Source of the DNA: a virus
Reading direction: 5' to 3' (one strand)
Virus record (IMG/VR): IMGVR_UViG_3300028610_000085
Coordinates: 1-44,442 of that record
DNA: 44,442 bases
Both the position numbers and the translations under genes were made by a program. Shown here in pieces: positions 9,696-33,524 of this stretch. Below the pieces are notes generated by a model. That model searched no databases. It was not told where the DNA came from and worked only from the letters and a program-made list of their open reading frames with translations. Position 1 is the stretch's first letter. Every line of letters starts with the position of its first letter.

Positions 9696-10150
9696 ATTAT
9701 ATTCCAGCCAGTAAGAGTAGCTTTAATAGTGTAACTACTTTTAGTGCTTATGTTAATTCCGTCTACTCTTCCATCTATAAGTTCTGTACCATCACCTATC
9801 AGAGTAACTTTATTGGTAGTAATAAGATCTATTCTTTTCACATCATACCTATAGCCTTCAAAACCTGTAACAGGCTGAGCAGTGATTATTATATCCCCTG
9901 CAGACGCATCTACTTCAATAGTACCGTCAGTCTCTACTATAGTATAGTCAGCAGTAACTAAAGTATTATTTCGCTGCTTAGCTATATAAGCAACAAATAC
10001 TGCATCTGCATCATCGCTACCTGTAAGCAGAGTCTCTATAGCATTATGAATATCAAGTAACGCTTCATATAATACAGGATCTTCTACCTGAGGTACCTGC
10101 CCTAGGCTAAGATCTGTATTAGAATCGTAAGTATTAGTAGGAGCCGGCAT
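9692..10150 (-). CDS. Small virion-associated protein, 152 aa
   Basis: It starts after AGGAAC about 6 bases upstream and lies 9 bases after the nozzle gene. The N-terminal ~45 residues are probably helical. The remainder reads as a regular beta structure (VTADYTIVETDGTIEVDASA and following), the pattern of the small all-beta domains attached to phage tail fibres and baseplates. It overlaps the next gene by four bases. The specific function is unknown; a tail component is inferred from context. Confidence 0.6.
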   Translation of the reverse strand: MPAPTNTYDSNTDLSLGQVPQVEDPVLYEALLDIHNAIETLLTGSDDADAVFVAYIAKQRNNTLVTADYTIVETDGTIEVDASAGDIIITAQPVTGFEGYRYDVKRIDLITTNKVTLIGDGTELIDGRVDGINISTKSSYTIKATLTGWNII

Positions 10151-23702: not shown

Positions 23703-24386
23703 CTATACCTCTCCTATTCCTGGAACCTCCACACTGGCGGCTACCCTAGCTACTTCTGCTTCTTCTACCTGCTTAAGTAAGTTACCTGACGGCATGGTAA
23801 GCAGCTCTTGCTCTCCTGCCTTTATTACCTGATTATCTAAGTTAGTAGTAAACTTCTGTACTATAACTTGTGGCATTATAAGCTGCACTACATTCTGTGT
23901 AGTAGATGCTTGCTGAGGTGCTGACTGGCCGCGGCGCTTAGCTCCATTGACTATCTGGATAGCTTTTAAGATAGACTCAGGTTTTATTAGCAGCGGTAAC
24001 TGCCGCTCCAGTTTCGCTAGTAGCTTGTCTTCTAAGCTATCATAAGCACCATCGCGCTTGTTATGTTTCTGCAGACTTTCATAGCGGAGACTAGCTACCT
24101 TAACTGCAAAGCTCTCTTCAGCTAATAGCTGTGCTATGCGACTAGGAGTTACTCCTAATGCTGCCGCTACCTGCTCCGCACCAACTCCGCTACCTAAGAG
24201 ATGTAATGCCTTCTCCTCTGTGCTAGATGTTTGCCCCGGAGAGTGATGATTGCTAGGCGCGCTAACTGCCACAGGTATAGCTGTGCTGCTACCTCCGCCT
24301 AAGGAGTCTAAGATACTATCCGCACTTACTGGCTCTGGTGCACTGCTTGCTGCCACCTTAGCTAACCGATCTGATAAGTCATTCAT
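23703..24386 (-). CDS. Small terminase candidate, 227 aa
   Basis: It is the first gene of the late block, two genes upstream of the large terminase. Residues ~60-100 contain a helix-turn-helix of the type HLLGSGVGAEQVAAALGVTP followed by SRIAQLLAEE, as in DNA-recognition domains of small terminases. Helical residues ~105-150 could form the oligomerisation core, and the ends are Ser/Ala/Pro and Val/Glu-rich. There is no visible ribosome-binding site before the ATG, and a TATACT -10-like element ends 7 bases upstream, so it may be translated from a leaderless message. Confidence 0.65.
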   Translation of the reverse strand: MNDLSDRLAKVAASSAPEPVSADSILDSLGGGSSTAIPVAVSAPSNHHSPGQTSSTEEKALHLLGSGVGAEQVAAALGVTPSRIAQLLAEESFAVKVASLRYESLQKHNKRDGAYDSLEDKLLAKLERQLPLLIKPESILKAIQIVNGAKRRGQSAPQQASTTQNVVQLIMPQVIVQKFTTNLDNQVIKAGEQELLTMPSGNLLKQVEEAEVARVAASVEVPGIGEV

Positions 24387-25021: not shown

Positions 25022-25771
25022 ATGAACAATCCACTAATGAATGAAGTATTAGAAACTGCTGCAACTGATAGCAATGACTCTAATCAGTTGCTTGCAACTA
25101 CGCTTAAAGACTTAGGTGAAGTATTAGGCGCTCCTAAAGCTTATGATTCGCAACTCCCTATTGCTGATATTGCAGGAACGCGGATTGTAAAGTGTCTGTA
25201 TCAAGCTGCTAAAGCAACTGGTAAAAAGAAGGCGGAAAATACTTATTACAGGGTTCCAACTAAGCATCTGACAGAAGAGTTGGTAGTTTCGCGTATTGCA
25301 GAATTGTCTCCTTATGTACTTTCGTATCTTCAGGAGCAGGAAGATAAAGAGATAAAAGCTTATCATGCGAAAGGAGGTCAGCAAGTATATACCGAATCAT
25401 TATCTATTGATAAGATTATAGAAGCATTAGAAGCTAGTGAAGCTGGAGCAAGACTTAATAAGGAGAAGATTGAGGCTTGGTTCACGGAATGTTTACAAGA
25501 TTCGCTGGCTGTAGCATTCGCAGCAAGGTTAGGCATTACTGAAAACTCTAGTGAGCAGGAACTAGTTAAGCTGGAGTTAGTTCTTAATGCTTATAAAGCT
25601 AAGTTTGCTAGCCTTGCTGGAGGTAAGACTTATATTAAAGAAGCTGATTGTATTGCTATGATCAGTGTAGTTGTTAAAGCTGAAGCAGAACAGAGCTTGT
25701 TAGGTAAGCGGTTTATTGCAAGACTTGAGAGCATGAAGAAGAAAGAGGATGATTTATTACTTAGCTTGTAA
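25022..25771 (+). CDS. Early protein of unknown function, 249 aa
   Basis: Not recognised. It starts with AAGGA about 9 bases upstream. The protein is acidic and mainly helical, with no Cys pairs, signal peptide or membrane segment. Noticeable segments are KDLGEVLGAPKAYDSQLP near the N-terminus, TRIVKCLYQAAKATGKKK at about residues 58-75, and a charged C-terminus (MKKKEDDLLLSL). It is the second gene of the early operon, and its size and position suggest a regulatory or host-takeover role, which is only inference. Confidence 0.75.
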   Translation: MNNPLMNEVLETAATDSNDSNQLLATTLKDLGEVLGAPKAYDSQLPIADIAGTRIVKCLYQAAKATGKKKAENTYYRVPTKHLTEELVVSRIAELSPYVLSYLQEQEDKEIKAYHAKGGQQVYTESLSIDKIIEALEASEAGARLNKEKIEAWFTECLQDSLAVAFAARLGITENSSEQELVKLELVLNAYKAKFASLAGGKTYIKEADCIAMISVVVKAEAEQSLLGKRFIARLESMKKKEDDLLLSL

Positions 25772-26291: not shown

Positions 26292-26318
26292 CAGCATCTA
26301 ATCTAAAGTACTAATCCT

Positions 26319-26342
26319 AAAGCCTCTTAACTGAGGCTTTTT
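26319..26342 (+). terminator. Intrinsic terminator ending the first early transcript
   Basis: AAAGCCTC (26319-26326) and GAGGCTTT (26333-26340) form an 8-bp stem with loop TTAACT, followed by more T. It lies 27 bases after the stop of the 59-aa gene. It separates the first early segment from the noncoding region and the second early promoter. Confidence 0.85.
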
Positions 26343-26373
26343 AGTAAGTAAGATCTAACTACTAAAAAACCAT

Positions 26374-26418
26374 TCTGGCACGAAATGCCATTTGCTGACA
26401 GAATGCCAATCTGCCAGA
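26374..26418 (-). repeat. TGGCA-box array 1 (left arm, minus orientation)
   Basis: On the minus strand four boxes occur: TGGCA at 26416-26412, 26408-26404 and 26390-26386, and inverted TGCCA at 26380-26376. Their spacing is 8, 18 and 10 bases. The last two form the inverted repeat TGGCA-N5-TGCCA. The array matches the right arm at 26731-26777 in 36 of 47 positions, in opposite orientation, with identical box spacing. On this arm the promoter elements are degenerate (TTTTTT and CATTCT), so it probably serves as a binding array rather than a promoter. Confidence 0.8.
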
Positions 26419-26465
26419 GGAAAAAAACCCGTATCTGTGTGTATATCGGTGTGTTTGTGCATGGT

Positions 26466-26542
26466 CTGTATCTAACTACTATGTAACTATGTGTTAGCTG
26501 TAACTATGTATCTAACTATCTGTATCTAGTATCTATCTATAT
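26466..26542. repeat. AT-rich cluster of short direct repeats
   Basis: ACTATGT occurs at 26478, 26486 and 26503, and TATCTA at 26469, 26509, 26523, 26530 and 26534, within 77 bases of otherwise simple AT-rich sequence. There is no reading frame. Such a helically unstable, repeat-rich stretch between two protein-binding arrays resembles an origin unwinding element. This is inference. Confidence 0.5.
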
Positions 26543-26582
26543 AAGTATGTAAGTATATGTATTATTTAATTAATCAAAAACA

Positions 26583-26717
26583 ATATACCCCTATATACTA
26601 CCCCTCAATCCGATAGACACATTAGTAGTCCCTAAGCCCTATATAGAGGGTTATAGCTAACTACTAGCATATAGATAGCTTAGATAGGGATAGAGACAGT
26701 GTATCATAGGGGTATAT
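26583..26717. repeat. Inner 12-bp inverted repeat of the noncoding region
   Basis: ATATACCCCTAT at 26583-26594 is repeated inverted as ATAGGGGTATAT at 26706-26717, nested inside the TGGCA arrays. The right copy overlaps the palindrome GGTATATACC (26711-26720) directly upstream of the promoter -35. The 111 bases between contain no gene. Confidence 0.65.
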
Positions 26718-26722
26718 ACCGG

Positions 26723-26750
26723 TTGACATGCTCTGGCATTATGGCATACT
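26723..26750 (+). promoter_or_regulatory. Second early promoter, overlapped by TGGCA boxes
   Basis: A perfect TTGACA (26723-26728) is followed after 16 bases by CATACT (26745-26750), four of six matches to TATAAT. The start point would be near 26757, about 100 bases before the gene at 26859. Two TGGCAT boxes lie in the spacer and the TGGCA-N5-TGCCA element covers the start point, so a bound protein would block it. It most likely drives the 26859-32297 gene set. Confidence 0.7.
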
Positions 26751-26774
26751 GTCAGGATATGGCACCGAATGCCA
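26734..26774 (+). repeat. TGGCA-box array 2 (right arm, on the promoter)
   Basis: Boxes TGGCA at 26734, 26742 and 26760 and inverted TGCCA at 26770 repeat the 8-18-10 spacing of the left array. The core TGGCACCGAATGCCA differs from the left copy TGGCACGAAATGCCA at two of 15 positions. Conservation of both the boxes and their spacing argues for a bound protein. A further single TGCCA occurs at 26805. Confidence 0.8.
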
Positions 26775-26858
26775 GAACCGGTTTCGAGTAGTAAGCAAGA
26801 ACCATGCCAATACGCATGTAAGATAACAATTAAATTCATATAACATAGGATACACAGT

Positions 26859-28037: not shown

Positions 28038-28319
28038 ATGAATCCTACTAAAGCACCCATTAATACTAAGATTTTATCTATCCGTATGCCTCGTGTGTTT
28101 GGGCATCCTTGTAACTATCTAACAGAAGGCAAAGTATATAAAGTTACTGACTGCTCTGTAGCTCGTGACGCTAGCGACTATGCACTATGCGATATTATTG
28201 ACGATACAGGAACCTCTGTTAATGTAACAGTAGGGCGCTCTTGCTATGTAGTAAGTAGTCATATAGGTAACAGTGCTACTATAGTAACTGTAGAGACTAA
28301 AGATAAGGAGTCTAAGTAA
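28038..28319 (+). CDS. Small beta-rich protein, 93 aa, paralogue of 27531-27836
   Basis: It shares with the gene two positions upstream the order NPTK...ILSxRxPR...GKVYKVxxC...CxIIDDT...TIVT...ESK. Identity is moderate, so the duplication is not recent. It ends one base into the next start (TAATG). Function unknown. Confidence 0.65.
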   Translation: MNPTKAPINTKILSIRMPRVFGHPCNYLTEGKVYKVTDCSVARDASDYALCDIIDDTGTSVNVTVGRSCYVVSSHIGNSATIVTVETKDKESK

Positions 28320-28780
28320 TGGTTACTAACCGCGCTAAACCAGCACAGAAGTTTCGCCCTGTATTAACAGCAGCTCAGATAGAGCATATCTTATATTTAG
28401 CTAAAACTGAGCAGCCTAGTATAACTGCTGCATCTATGTCTCTTATCTCCACTCTCTCTCCTTTTCAGGCTAAGATAGCTAACGCCGGTATACAGCCAGC
28501 TTATACTATGGCGCCAGTAAAACCTAAGGCAGCTAGTATAGAAGGGCTAGGCGGAGACCCTTTTGTTAATACTAAACTTATGGGACAGTCTAAGGAGATG
28601 TACTGGGCTGACTGCTATAACAAGTTTAGCGATAACCCAGCCCTTTGTAACTTAGATGAAATTGCAGCAGCTAAAGAACATATGTATCTTAATGATCTTA
28701 TGTCTCCGGCAGAGCTAGCTGAGTTTGAAACTAGCACTAATGACTATGATAAGACTGACAGTCAAGGTAATTTATTATGA
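28319..28780 (+). CDS. Hypothetical early protein, 153 aa
   Basis: Its start overlaps the previous stop, and GGAG lies about 8 bases upstream. The first ~85 residues are basic, with helices (TAAQIEHILYLAKTEQPS). The C-terminal half is acidic and helical (SKEMYWADCYNKFSDNPA, then an Asp/Glu-rich tail). No recognised domain. It overlaps the next gene by 4 bases. Confidence 0.65.
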   Translation: MVTNRAKPAQKFRPVLTAAQIEHILYLAKTEQPSITAASMSLISTLSPFQAKIANAGIQPAYTMAPVKPKAASIEGLGGDPFVNTKLMGQSKEMYWADCYNKFSDNPALCNLDEIAAAKEHMYLNDLMSPAELAEFETSTNDYDKTDSQGNLL

Positions 28781-29145
28781 GTAACAATACTAATTTAGCT
28801 ATTAACTTACCTATCTCTACTTCTTTAAAGGATAAGATAGTAGAGATTAAAGATTTAACCTCTCCAGGAGTATCAGAGTTACACGTACACGCTACTCACA
28901 GAGCTAGAGTAGTCTTTACTAATGGGTATGCTCTATCTATTATAAGAGGCGAATACACTCATGGAGGAGATGAAGGACTATATGAGATAGCTCCTATGGG
29001 TTTAAACGGTCACTTAGACGGCAATCTCTTAGATGAAGAGGATCAAGGAGATGATGTATTAGGCTGGTGTGATGAAGCTAAAGTTAACTACTATATAACT
29101 AAACTAGCTAACTTACCTAAGCAGGAGACATCTAATAATGGCTAA
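28777..29145 (+). CDS. Phage conserved-type hypothetical protein, 122 aa
   Basis: The central stretch ARVVFTNGYALSIIRGEYTH followed by GGDEGLYEIAPMG resembles a small phage protein family seen near replication genes, but I know no function for it. The C-terminal ~35 residues are acidic, then WCDEAKVNYYITKL. It overlaps both neighbours by 4-8 bases, consistent with one long operon. Confidence 0.65.
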   Translation: MSNNTNLAINLPISTSLKDKIVEIKDLTSPGVSELHVHATHRARVVFTNGYALSIIRGEYTHGGDEGLYEIAPMGLNGHLDGNLLDEEDQGDDVLGWCDEAKVNYYITKLANLPKQETSNNG

Positions 29146-30250
29146 TATAACCTGTGCAATATCAGGTATAAGGTTCTCCTGTTCTGGCTTAGATTCTATA
29201 TCTATACCTCATACAGCAGGTTACTTTCATCCTGTATTTGCTTTAGAACATAAAGAACTACATTCCTTATATAGTTCTCACTGTCGCGGTAAGCTTACAG
29301 CTAAGGACTCCTATCTCTTATTTATGGCTCTGGTACATTCCTCTGGTCACATAGACTGGAAGCACCCAGCCACCATAGATCCTAACTCACCTAAAACAAT
29401 CTCCCTTATAGAAAACAATCTATCACAGATGTTATCTATCCTTTCCCAAACAGATGCTATCCGCCACCCATCATTCCAACAACCTAAGTTTAAAGTAACC
29501 TATGAAAACTGTCATCTAATCCAGATACCTAATTGGATAGAAGCTTGGCAGGATAATATAGATGACTTTAAGTATGGGCGAGCAGATCTTAAGCAGCAAC
29601 AAGATTTGCAAGAGGTAGAGAATTCTCTATCTAAGCTTATTCTCTCTGGCGACTCTCCTGAACGCTATGCTCATGTTATAGCTAACTGGGCTAGTCAAGC
29701 AGCAGAGTTTCCAGCAGATAAGGATGAACTCTATCAGAAAACTATTCGCTCCTGCTTTAACATTACTAAGATGTTTAATACTCCGCTAGCATTGCTAAAA
29801 GAGATTAAAGATTACTGTGAATGTAATATAGAGGCAGGATCTATTCACTTTCATTCCTTATCCGCTGTGCTTAAAGAAGGCATAAGCAGAAACCTAGATT
29901 ACCTAGGAGGATCTAGCTTAGCTCTAGGGTATACTCTTCTTCCAAGCGAGGATATGTCTCCTGCCTGTAAGAAAGCAGAACTAAAGAATCAAGCTGAGGT
30001 TGCAGCATTGGCAGCTAAAGCGCCAGAAACTAAGCCAGTAAGAGCTGACTATGCTACTAGCTTAGACTTCTTAAAAGCAGAGCTAGCTTATAGAGTAGCA
30101 TTGAATGCAAGTAAACAGGCGGCTAAAGTAGAAGCTAAAATTAAAGCAGATGATAAGTCAGCTAACTGGACTGTTAATGTACCTGATGTTAAACCTACTA
30201 CTTTAGAAGAGCTTGACTTAGATAATTTAAAATCAGAGGATAACTTATAA
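29138..30250 (+). CDS. Hypothetical protein upstream of the helicase, 370 aa
   Basis: Not recognised. The N-terminus carries ITCAISGIRFSC, with a Cys pair separated by nine residues, followed by HTAGYFHPVFAL, so a small metal-binding or structural head is possible. Residues ~60-280 are mostly helical. The C-terminal ~80 residues are Lys/Ala-rich and then acidic and probably disordered. The start overlaps the upstream gene, and the stop overlaps the next ATG (TAATG). Position directly before a small gene and the helicase suggests a replication accessory, by context only. Confidence 0.65.
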   Translation: MANITCAISGIRFSCSGLDSISIPHTAGYFHPVFALEHKELHSLYSSHCRGKLTAKDSYLLFMALVHSSGHIDWKHPATIDPNSPKTISLIENNLSQMLSILSQTDAIRHPSFQQPKFKVTYENCHLIQIPNWIEAWQDNIDDFKYGRADLKQQQDLQEVENSLSKLILSGDSPERYAHVIANWASQAAEFPADKDELYQKTIRSCFNITKMFNTPLALLKEIKDYCECNIEAGSIHFHSLSAVLKEGISRNLDYLGGSSLALGYTLLPSEDMSPACKKAELKNQAEVAALAAKAPETKPVRADYATSLDFLKAELAYRVALNASKQAAKVEAKIKADDKSANWTVNVPDVKPTTLEELDLDNLKSEDNL

Positions 30251-32798: not shown

Positions 32799-33524
32799 AT
32801 GACCGAAGACACTAACGAAGTAGTAACCGAGAACAACGACCCTAAGCAACAGGTTATCTCTGTTGAAAACCCTAATACTGAAGAAATGGCAGCACTACTA
32901 GAGAATGTTAAAGTTAACTATAACTTTGATGTTCGTACTACCTCTACTCAGTTTAACTTTAAGAAGTCTAAAGATAAGATCTCTGGTATCGAAACTGTGC
33001 GAGAGTCTGTAGTTCTAGCTATGCCTTATCCTTCTATGGAAGGTATTGTAGCTATCCTGGAAGGTGGCGGCAAGGGGCTGGAACTTCTGGTAGAAGCAAT
33101 GGAGTCTGTAGTTAACGCTGCTGCACGTGACTTGCTGTATGAAGACACCACTCTTAATGCGGCAGCCTTTCCTGTAGATAAGGTGTCTTGGGAATTCATT
33201 GCTAACATGCCTAAAGCTCAGCGTAAGGGTGGCGGTATTCCTAAGGAGACTTGGGAAGGCTTTGCTCAGGATTATGTGGAAGTCATGCCTGCTGTTACTG
33301 GTAAGACTATCGATCAGGTTGCTAACGCGGCTAAGATCCTGGCAGCTAAGCTTACAGCAGTTCGTACTAACGAGCCTGTGCTGCAACTGCTAGTAGAGCA
33401 GCTGGCTGTCTATGCTGATAACTCTCCGAACGTAGAAGAGTATCAGGACTGTGTAGCCTTCTTGCTTAATAAGGCAGAGACTTTCCTTAATGTATCTGAA
33501 GAAGAGCTGCTTGCTAATCTGTAA
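32799..33524 (+). CDS. Acidic early protein with its own promoter, 241 aa
   Basis: Not assigned to a named family, though the segment MPYPSMEGIVAILEGGGKGL followed by a helical region looks like a protein I believe is widespread among phages. It is strongly acidic at both ends. Near the middle it has KAQRKGGGIPKETWEGFAQD and then VMPAVTGKTIDQVANAAKIL. Codons are more biased to common forms (CTG, GCT, AAC) than neighbours, suggesting high expression, and it has its own strong promoter. There is no good ribosome-binding site near the ATG. A nucleic-acid binding or replication role is possible. Confidence 0.7.
   Translation: MTEDTNEVVTENNDPKQQVISVENPNTEEMAALLENVKVNYNFDVRTTSTQFNFKKSKDKISGIETVRESVVLAMPYPSMEGIVAILEGGGKGLELLVEAMESVVNAAARDLLYEDTTLNAAAFPVDKVSWEFIANMPKAQRKGGGIPKETWEGFAQDYVEVMPAVTGKTIDQVANAAKILAAKLTAVRTNEPVLQLLVEQLAVYADNSPNVEEYQDCVAFLLNKAETFLNVSEEELLANL

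Follow-up and report, generated by a model that had tools for sequence, protein, structure and literature searches.

We found that an intergenic region of an uncultured phage carries two mirror-facing arrays of short boxes, a real and conserved regulatory feature that probably serves an autoregulatory phage repressor with paired mirror operators. The region lies in the 44,442-base virus contig analyzed here (IMG/VR record IMGVR_UViG_3300028610_000085, positions 1 to 44,442), which we call the window. The layout of the arrays is kept among related phages while their letters change in step, which appears to mark a dedicated, fast-evolving genetic switch whose binder is a candidate only. An anonymous intergenic region thus becomes a testable regulatory switch of a large uncultured phage clade.

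The window, whose ends are identical over 144 bases, is a 44.4-kb podovirus-type phage of that clade and distant kin of the Fredfastierviridae. Identical end repeats in relatives measure 114, 127, or 144 bases, lengths that suggest overlaps left by the assembly of a circular map. The phage codes for a large terminase, portal, major head protein, Dda-like helicase, PolA-type polymerase, primase, and Sak4-like protein, and two of its core proteins (25022-25771 and 32799-33524) look alike in their C-terminal halves and tails and may be paralogs. Its nearest cultured relatives by portal protein, about 30% identical, are Polaromonas phage Tiera, Aeromonas phage P5, and the Jamesmcgillvirus (Fredfastierviridae) phages of Pseudomonas aeruginosa. 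Searching by tblastn with the portal yielded 20 distant phages, and in IMG/VR 66 loci have a terminase at 56 to 88% identity; nucleotide relatives of the array locus were absent among GenBank phages. A host scan of genome contigs returned two metagenome-assembled contigs only and no reliable host. A 44-kb contig from a metagenome-assembled genome assigned to Coxiella sp. (L148; terminase 67% identical) shows the complete 8-8-10-10 series of TGGCA boxes in its right array; it is probably a phage contig and gives a weak host hint only.

Two mirror-facing arrays and an early promoter

The original prediction described three TGGCA boxes and one inverted TGCCA per array, in opposite orientation and with 8-18-10 spacing. 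We found these boxes where it had placed them, with TGGCA at 26376 (+) and TGCCA at 26386, 26404, and 26412 on the left and TGGCA at 26734, 26742, and 26760 and TGCCA at 26770 on the right. The inventory was incomplete, since a direct TGTCA inside each 18-bp step had been missed; the pitch of both arrays is 8-8-10-10 (Table 1). Identical spacing with divergent filler, as predicted, is borne out by box letters that agree at 24 of 24 positions between the arrays and filler that agrees at 6 of 17. Two quantities needed revision: the best ungapped match between the arrays is 34 of 47 positions and not 36, and they are separated by 317 bp, not about 311, of sequence that is AT-rich as stated but, at 65% A+T, only mildly above the genome. 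A 25-letter array pattern scored 24 of 25 at two places in the window, with 17 at the next best place and a maximum of 18 in 200 shuffled windows. Terminator-like hairpins such as the one next to the left array (Table 1) stand beside the left arrays of relatives too. The TGGCA-n5-TGCCA palindrome of the left array itself (26376-26390, minus strand), followed by GAATGGTTTT, also received a terminator-like hairpin score, in this case for transcripts running leftward.

Beneath the right array is a sigma-70 type promoter, directed at the early genes, that the original prediction had overlooked. A −35 element with at least five of six consensus bases is found at the right array in 21 of 26 genomes, a descriptive count because anchors were picked by eye on TTGAC where present, and in 19 of the 26 the TGG or TGT that extends the −10 comes from a box. 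A consensus promoter scan alone found no more promoters than in shuffles, and it is therefore the recurrence at one place that carries weight. In the window, the boxes of the right array run over the spacer, −10, and start region of this promoter, and relatives have the promoter at the equivalent place, the arrangement of an early-promoter operator. By contrast, TTGAC was found upstream of none of the left arrays listed for relatives. The roles of the two arrays would thus differ, with a promoter-occluding operator on one side and a presumed auxiliary site without a promoter on the other. A leftward promoter on the left array was rejected, as it would be without a −35 and would run antisense into the rightward genes; a sigma-54 promoter was rejected on account of the unsuitable TGGCA-n5-TGCCA spacing.

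Table 1. Coordinates of the features discussed, as positions in the window
Feature	Position	Strand	Description
Terminator-like hairpin AAAGCCTC...GAGGCTTTTT	26317..26343	+	Ends the upstream rightward genes just ahead of the left array; direct sequence reading
Left array	26376..26416	-	TGGCA-n3-TGGCA-n3-TGTCA-n5-TGGCA-n5-TGCCA on the minus strand; without upstream −35; proposed auxiliary operator; equivalents in relatives
Inter-array stretch	26417..26733		AT-rich core at ~26540-26575, then C-rich tract; may act as a loop and/or as the core of an origin
Sigma-70 type early promoter TTGACA-16-CATACT	26723..26750	+	Box 2 supplies TGG of the extended −10; equivalent place in relatives
Right array	26734..26774	+	Layout as left array, on the plus strand; reaches from the promoter spacer across the −10 into the start region; putative operator of the promoter; equivalents in relatives
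153-aa early protein	28319..28780	+	Best candidate for an array-binding repressor; N-terminal extended segment and two helices, putatively ribbon-helix-helix-like

Array layout and box letters in related phages

We scanned IMG/VR for the exact layout and obtained six contigs, all of them terminase relatives of the window phage. Mirror arrays between the small terminase and helicase genes are present in many relatives that cover this locus; absence from close relatives, the outcome that the original prediction had named as refuting it, is not what we found. For a test free of the TGGCA assumption, we used 26 genomes, including the window: the 85 bases that start at the −35 element of each were reverse-complemented and matched to the 380 bases upstream, both in that genome and in all the others, with shuffles as control. 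The match to a phage's own partner array exceeded shuffles by z > 4 in 23 of 26 genomes (the exceptions being L040, L062, and L066), so that a second matched operator-like array stands at a distance in the same genome, as in looping systems. Arrays of different phages that share TGGCA also match one another, as expected. In six phages with other or mixed boxes, the own partner was the best of all 26 (G023 with ATGATT, L065 with GTCTA, G028 with GGTAAAATAACC, and G031, G019, and G015), and in G012, with TGTCA, it ranked third. The letters, among them TGGCA, TGTCA, GTCTA, and ATGATT, therefore differ between phages but are usually matched within one phage. A relative of G023, L048, has the ATGATT repeat as well.

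The spacing is more constant than the letters. Whatever the letters, in 23 of 26 genomes the pitch of the right array, taken as the commonest repeat step of four-letter words, equals 8 or 10 bases, in some of them from few repeats; G023 has a pitch of 6, G028 peaks at 9, and L062 is without an exact repeat. A fixed footprint with changing specificity in one protein family seems the simplest reading of these values. When we scanned by self-similarity for exact 8-8-10-10 arrays built from different letters, just one more came up, because letters, box counts, and the orientation of the last box all vary. The distance from array to array is about 280-420 bp in relatives and shows no common helical phase. 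Taken together, layout, pitch, and left/right match are kept while letters and filler change, which strongly supports the earlier proposal of selection for protein binding. Individual loci have been rearranged: G021 (L095, ~9720-9800) has a doubled left array whose halves stand symmetrically back to back (>>>><<<), unlike that of other relatives, and in G012 (L106) and L023, a 249-aa gene adjoining the left array has an orientation or place other than in the window, with the arrays staying put.

A candidate repressor and its proposed paired operators

The reading we favor, with somewhat better than even confidence, is that a phage-encoded repressor uses the two arrays as paired operators to control the early promoter, the left one auxiliary, perhaps through looping, with the 153-aa protein of Table 1 as the best candidate binder. 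In its paired-operator part, the original prediction is strongly supported by the relatives. Since a sigma-70 promoter lies under the right array, repression of early transcription would be the leading function. A dedicated, phage-encoded, sequence-specific repressor bound to the right operator, which covers the promoter spacer through the −10 and the start region, would shut out host RNA polymerase. Facing the right operator in mirror orientation about 320 bp away, the left one would most likely raise occupancy by protein–protein contact across a loop. Looping is plausible, but the range of distances among relatives, without helical phasing, does not specifically indicate it. If the repressor is the 153-aa early protein, it would repress its own operon.

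Several properties recommend this protein. Homologs were detected in 23 of the 24 compared genomes in which the early region is present, and in nine relatives (G006, G015, G016, G019, G028, G031, L057, L059, and L062) the gene is the first behind the promoter, where an autoregulator is typically encoded. The window departs from this order, with the gene in sixth position; in G023, the phage with the pitch of 6, a homolog was not detectable. The N terminus reads K[YF]RP[SV]LT and is followed by two helices. An AlphaFold2 model (mean pLDDT 86) places an extended segment at residues 6-13 and helices at 14-25 and 33-51, these parts with a pLDDT of about 90, as a monomer without strand pairing. The N-terminal segment varies with box type, being RYRPAFS with TGTCA, TYRVTLT with mixed TGNCA, and KYRPYFT with GTCTA, although such differences would also be expected of any fast-evolving stretch. 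In a partial Mantel test of covariation, the family ranked third of 28, a weak signal (p=0.03, uncorrected) with two virion proteins ranking higher. Where the original prediction could assign no binding protein, a candidate can now be named, though not proved: position, distribution, and a short sequence resemblance make it a tentative choice, somewhat short of an even chance.

A ribbon-helix-helix nature, as in the repressors AmrZ, MetJ, and Arc, is suggested by the predicted N-terminal extended segment and two helices, and the position of the gene in relatives would likewise suit an autoregulator. AmrZ, a ribbon-helix-helix protein that represses its own gene, reads GGC half sites with five bases between them (PMC3325190); such GGC cores, one every 8 bp, have the pitch and core of TGGCA-n3-TGGCA. 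However, Foldseek found no match for the whole 153-aa protein and nothing significant in the PDB for its N-terminal domain; profile searches of Pfam and the PDB gave no ribbon-helix-helix match, and hhalign against four ribbon-helix-helix members was negative. With no profile similarity, we did not file the protein as a member of this group. The window also departs from ribbon-helix-helix systems, beyond this lack of a profile or fold match, in its direct repeats, its 10-bp steps, and its paired distant arrays.

Alternative functions and known switches

The stretch between the arrays suggests, from its composition, a second function, possibly an origin. All 26 genomes have an AT-rich core, with 27 to 35 of 35 bases A or T, and in most a C-rich tract comes after it; 10 of the 26 contain ACATCAA on one strand, where 0.2 would be expected, and the pyrimidine excess drops across the core. 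These tests are inflated, because the core was chosen by maximizing A/T and the genomes are related. If the region were a replication origin, a phage initiator on both arrays would open the core and the promoter overlap would give autoregulation, all of which is compatible with a repressor at paired operators; plain operator looping would have no need of a conserved center. As in iteron-type origins, short-repeat arrays stand beside an AT-rich stretch that could serve as the unwinding region. Unlike those origins, the window has mirror arrays on both sides, one of them on a promoter, and neither a recognized initiator nor a skew minimum at this place: GC skew does not switch at the arrays, and its cumulative whole-genome minimum is at 24367, a gene-direction switch 2 kb away. 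We therefore rate an origin as improbable. Next to the helicase, a 370-aa protein (29138-30250 in the window), present in 15 of 15 genomes compared, is a candidate replication factor.

A host-encoded factor, with letters that differ according to the host of each phage, is very unlikely to be the binder. The phage protein is a candidate only, and GGC at an 8-bp pitch resembles the sites read by the bacterial regulator AmrZ (PMC3325190), but pitch and layout persist while the letters change among phages with 60-80% identical terminases. One co-evolving phage family therefore fits better than many host factors. Least probable of all is a packaging (pac) site with the small terminase bound on both sides, for which the nearness of the small terminase gene, 2 kb away, and the known paired binding sites around the SPP1 cut site would speak; we rejected it because the predicted small-terminase recognition helix (GVTPSRIAQLL) stays similar while the box letters change completely and so does not co-vary with box types, and because overlap with an early promoter is not expected of such a site.

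In architecture, the arrays are a variation on known operator systems. The OL/OR pair of lambda, joined by looping CI, likewise has two clusters of several boxes, one over an early promoter, and lambda-type operators, like those of the window clade, differ in letters between related phages with the architecture kept. In contrast to lambda, the left array is promoterless, the arrays are ~320 bp apart and not 2.4 kb, and the boxes are 5-bp, mostly direct repeats at 8/10-bp pitch, where lambda has 17-bp palindromes. Neither a CI-like protein nor an integrase was recognized in the window phage. Across the compared genomes, letters change and architecture is kept, a natural series useful for following the evolution of DNA-binding specificity.

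The repressor could also act as the immunity switch of a nonintegrating lineage, an extension we regard as doubtful: flanking the early-promoter (and perhaps origin) region, it would give a quiet episome and an immune cell, and selection by immunity would drive box turnover. For Shea, a Jamesmcgillvirus of the Fredfastierviridae, episomal persistence and superinfection resistance have been reported with no recognized lysogeny genes (PMC13348215). A paired-operator switch could explain a Shea-type episomal state, and selection by immunity could account for the turnover of boxes. If so, the arrays would supply the molecular basis of that superinfection-resistant state and, were the tie to Fredfastierviridae pseudolysogeny to hold, a mechanism for a lifestyle without known genes.

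A similar switch, with other boxes, is apparently common to cultured Pseudomonas phages too. The Jamesmcgillvirus phages PaMx41, 119X, and PaP2 have three copies of CAAGGT on the left and four to five of ACCTTG on the right, mirrored in the same intergenic region around ~270-300 bp, and they share a related portal and the gene order with the window. They differ from it in box letters, in a pitch of 10-13 bp, and in that a homolog of the 153-aa protein was not found. We found no description of these arrays in the literature searched. The evidence is a count of CAAGGT, a motif picked by eye: in PaMx41, 7 of 29 genome-wide CAAGGT/ACCTTG sites fall within 562 bases (P about 3e-8, for a motif chosen after inspection). 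Mirror matching over the whole region gave borderline results in 119X and Tiera and did not reach significance in PaMx41. In Tiera, a 23-base inverted pair is 87% complementary at a distance of 427 bases. The intergenic region of Tiera equivalent to the array locus also contains a perfect 72-base tandem duplication (L142, 43928-44071).
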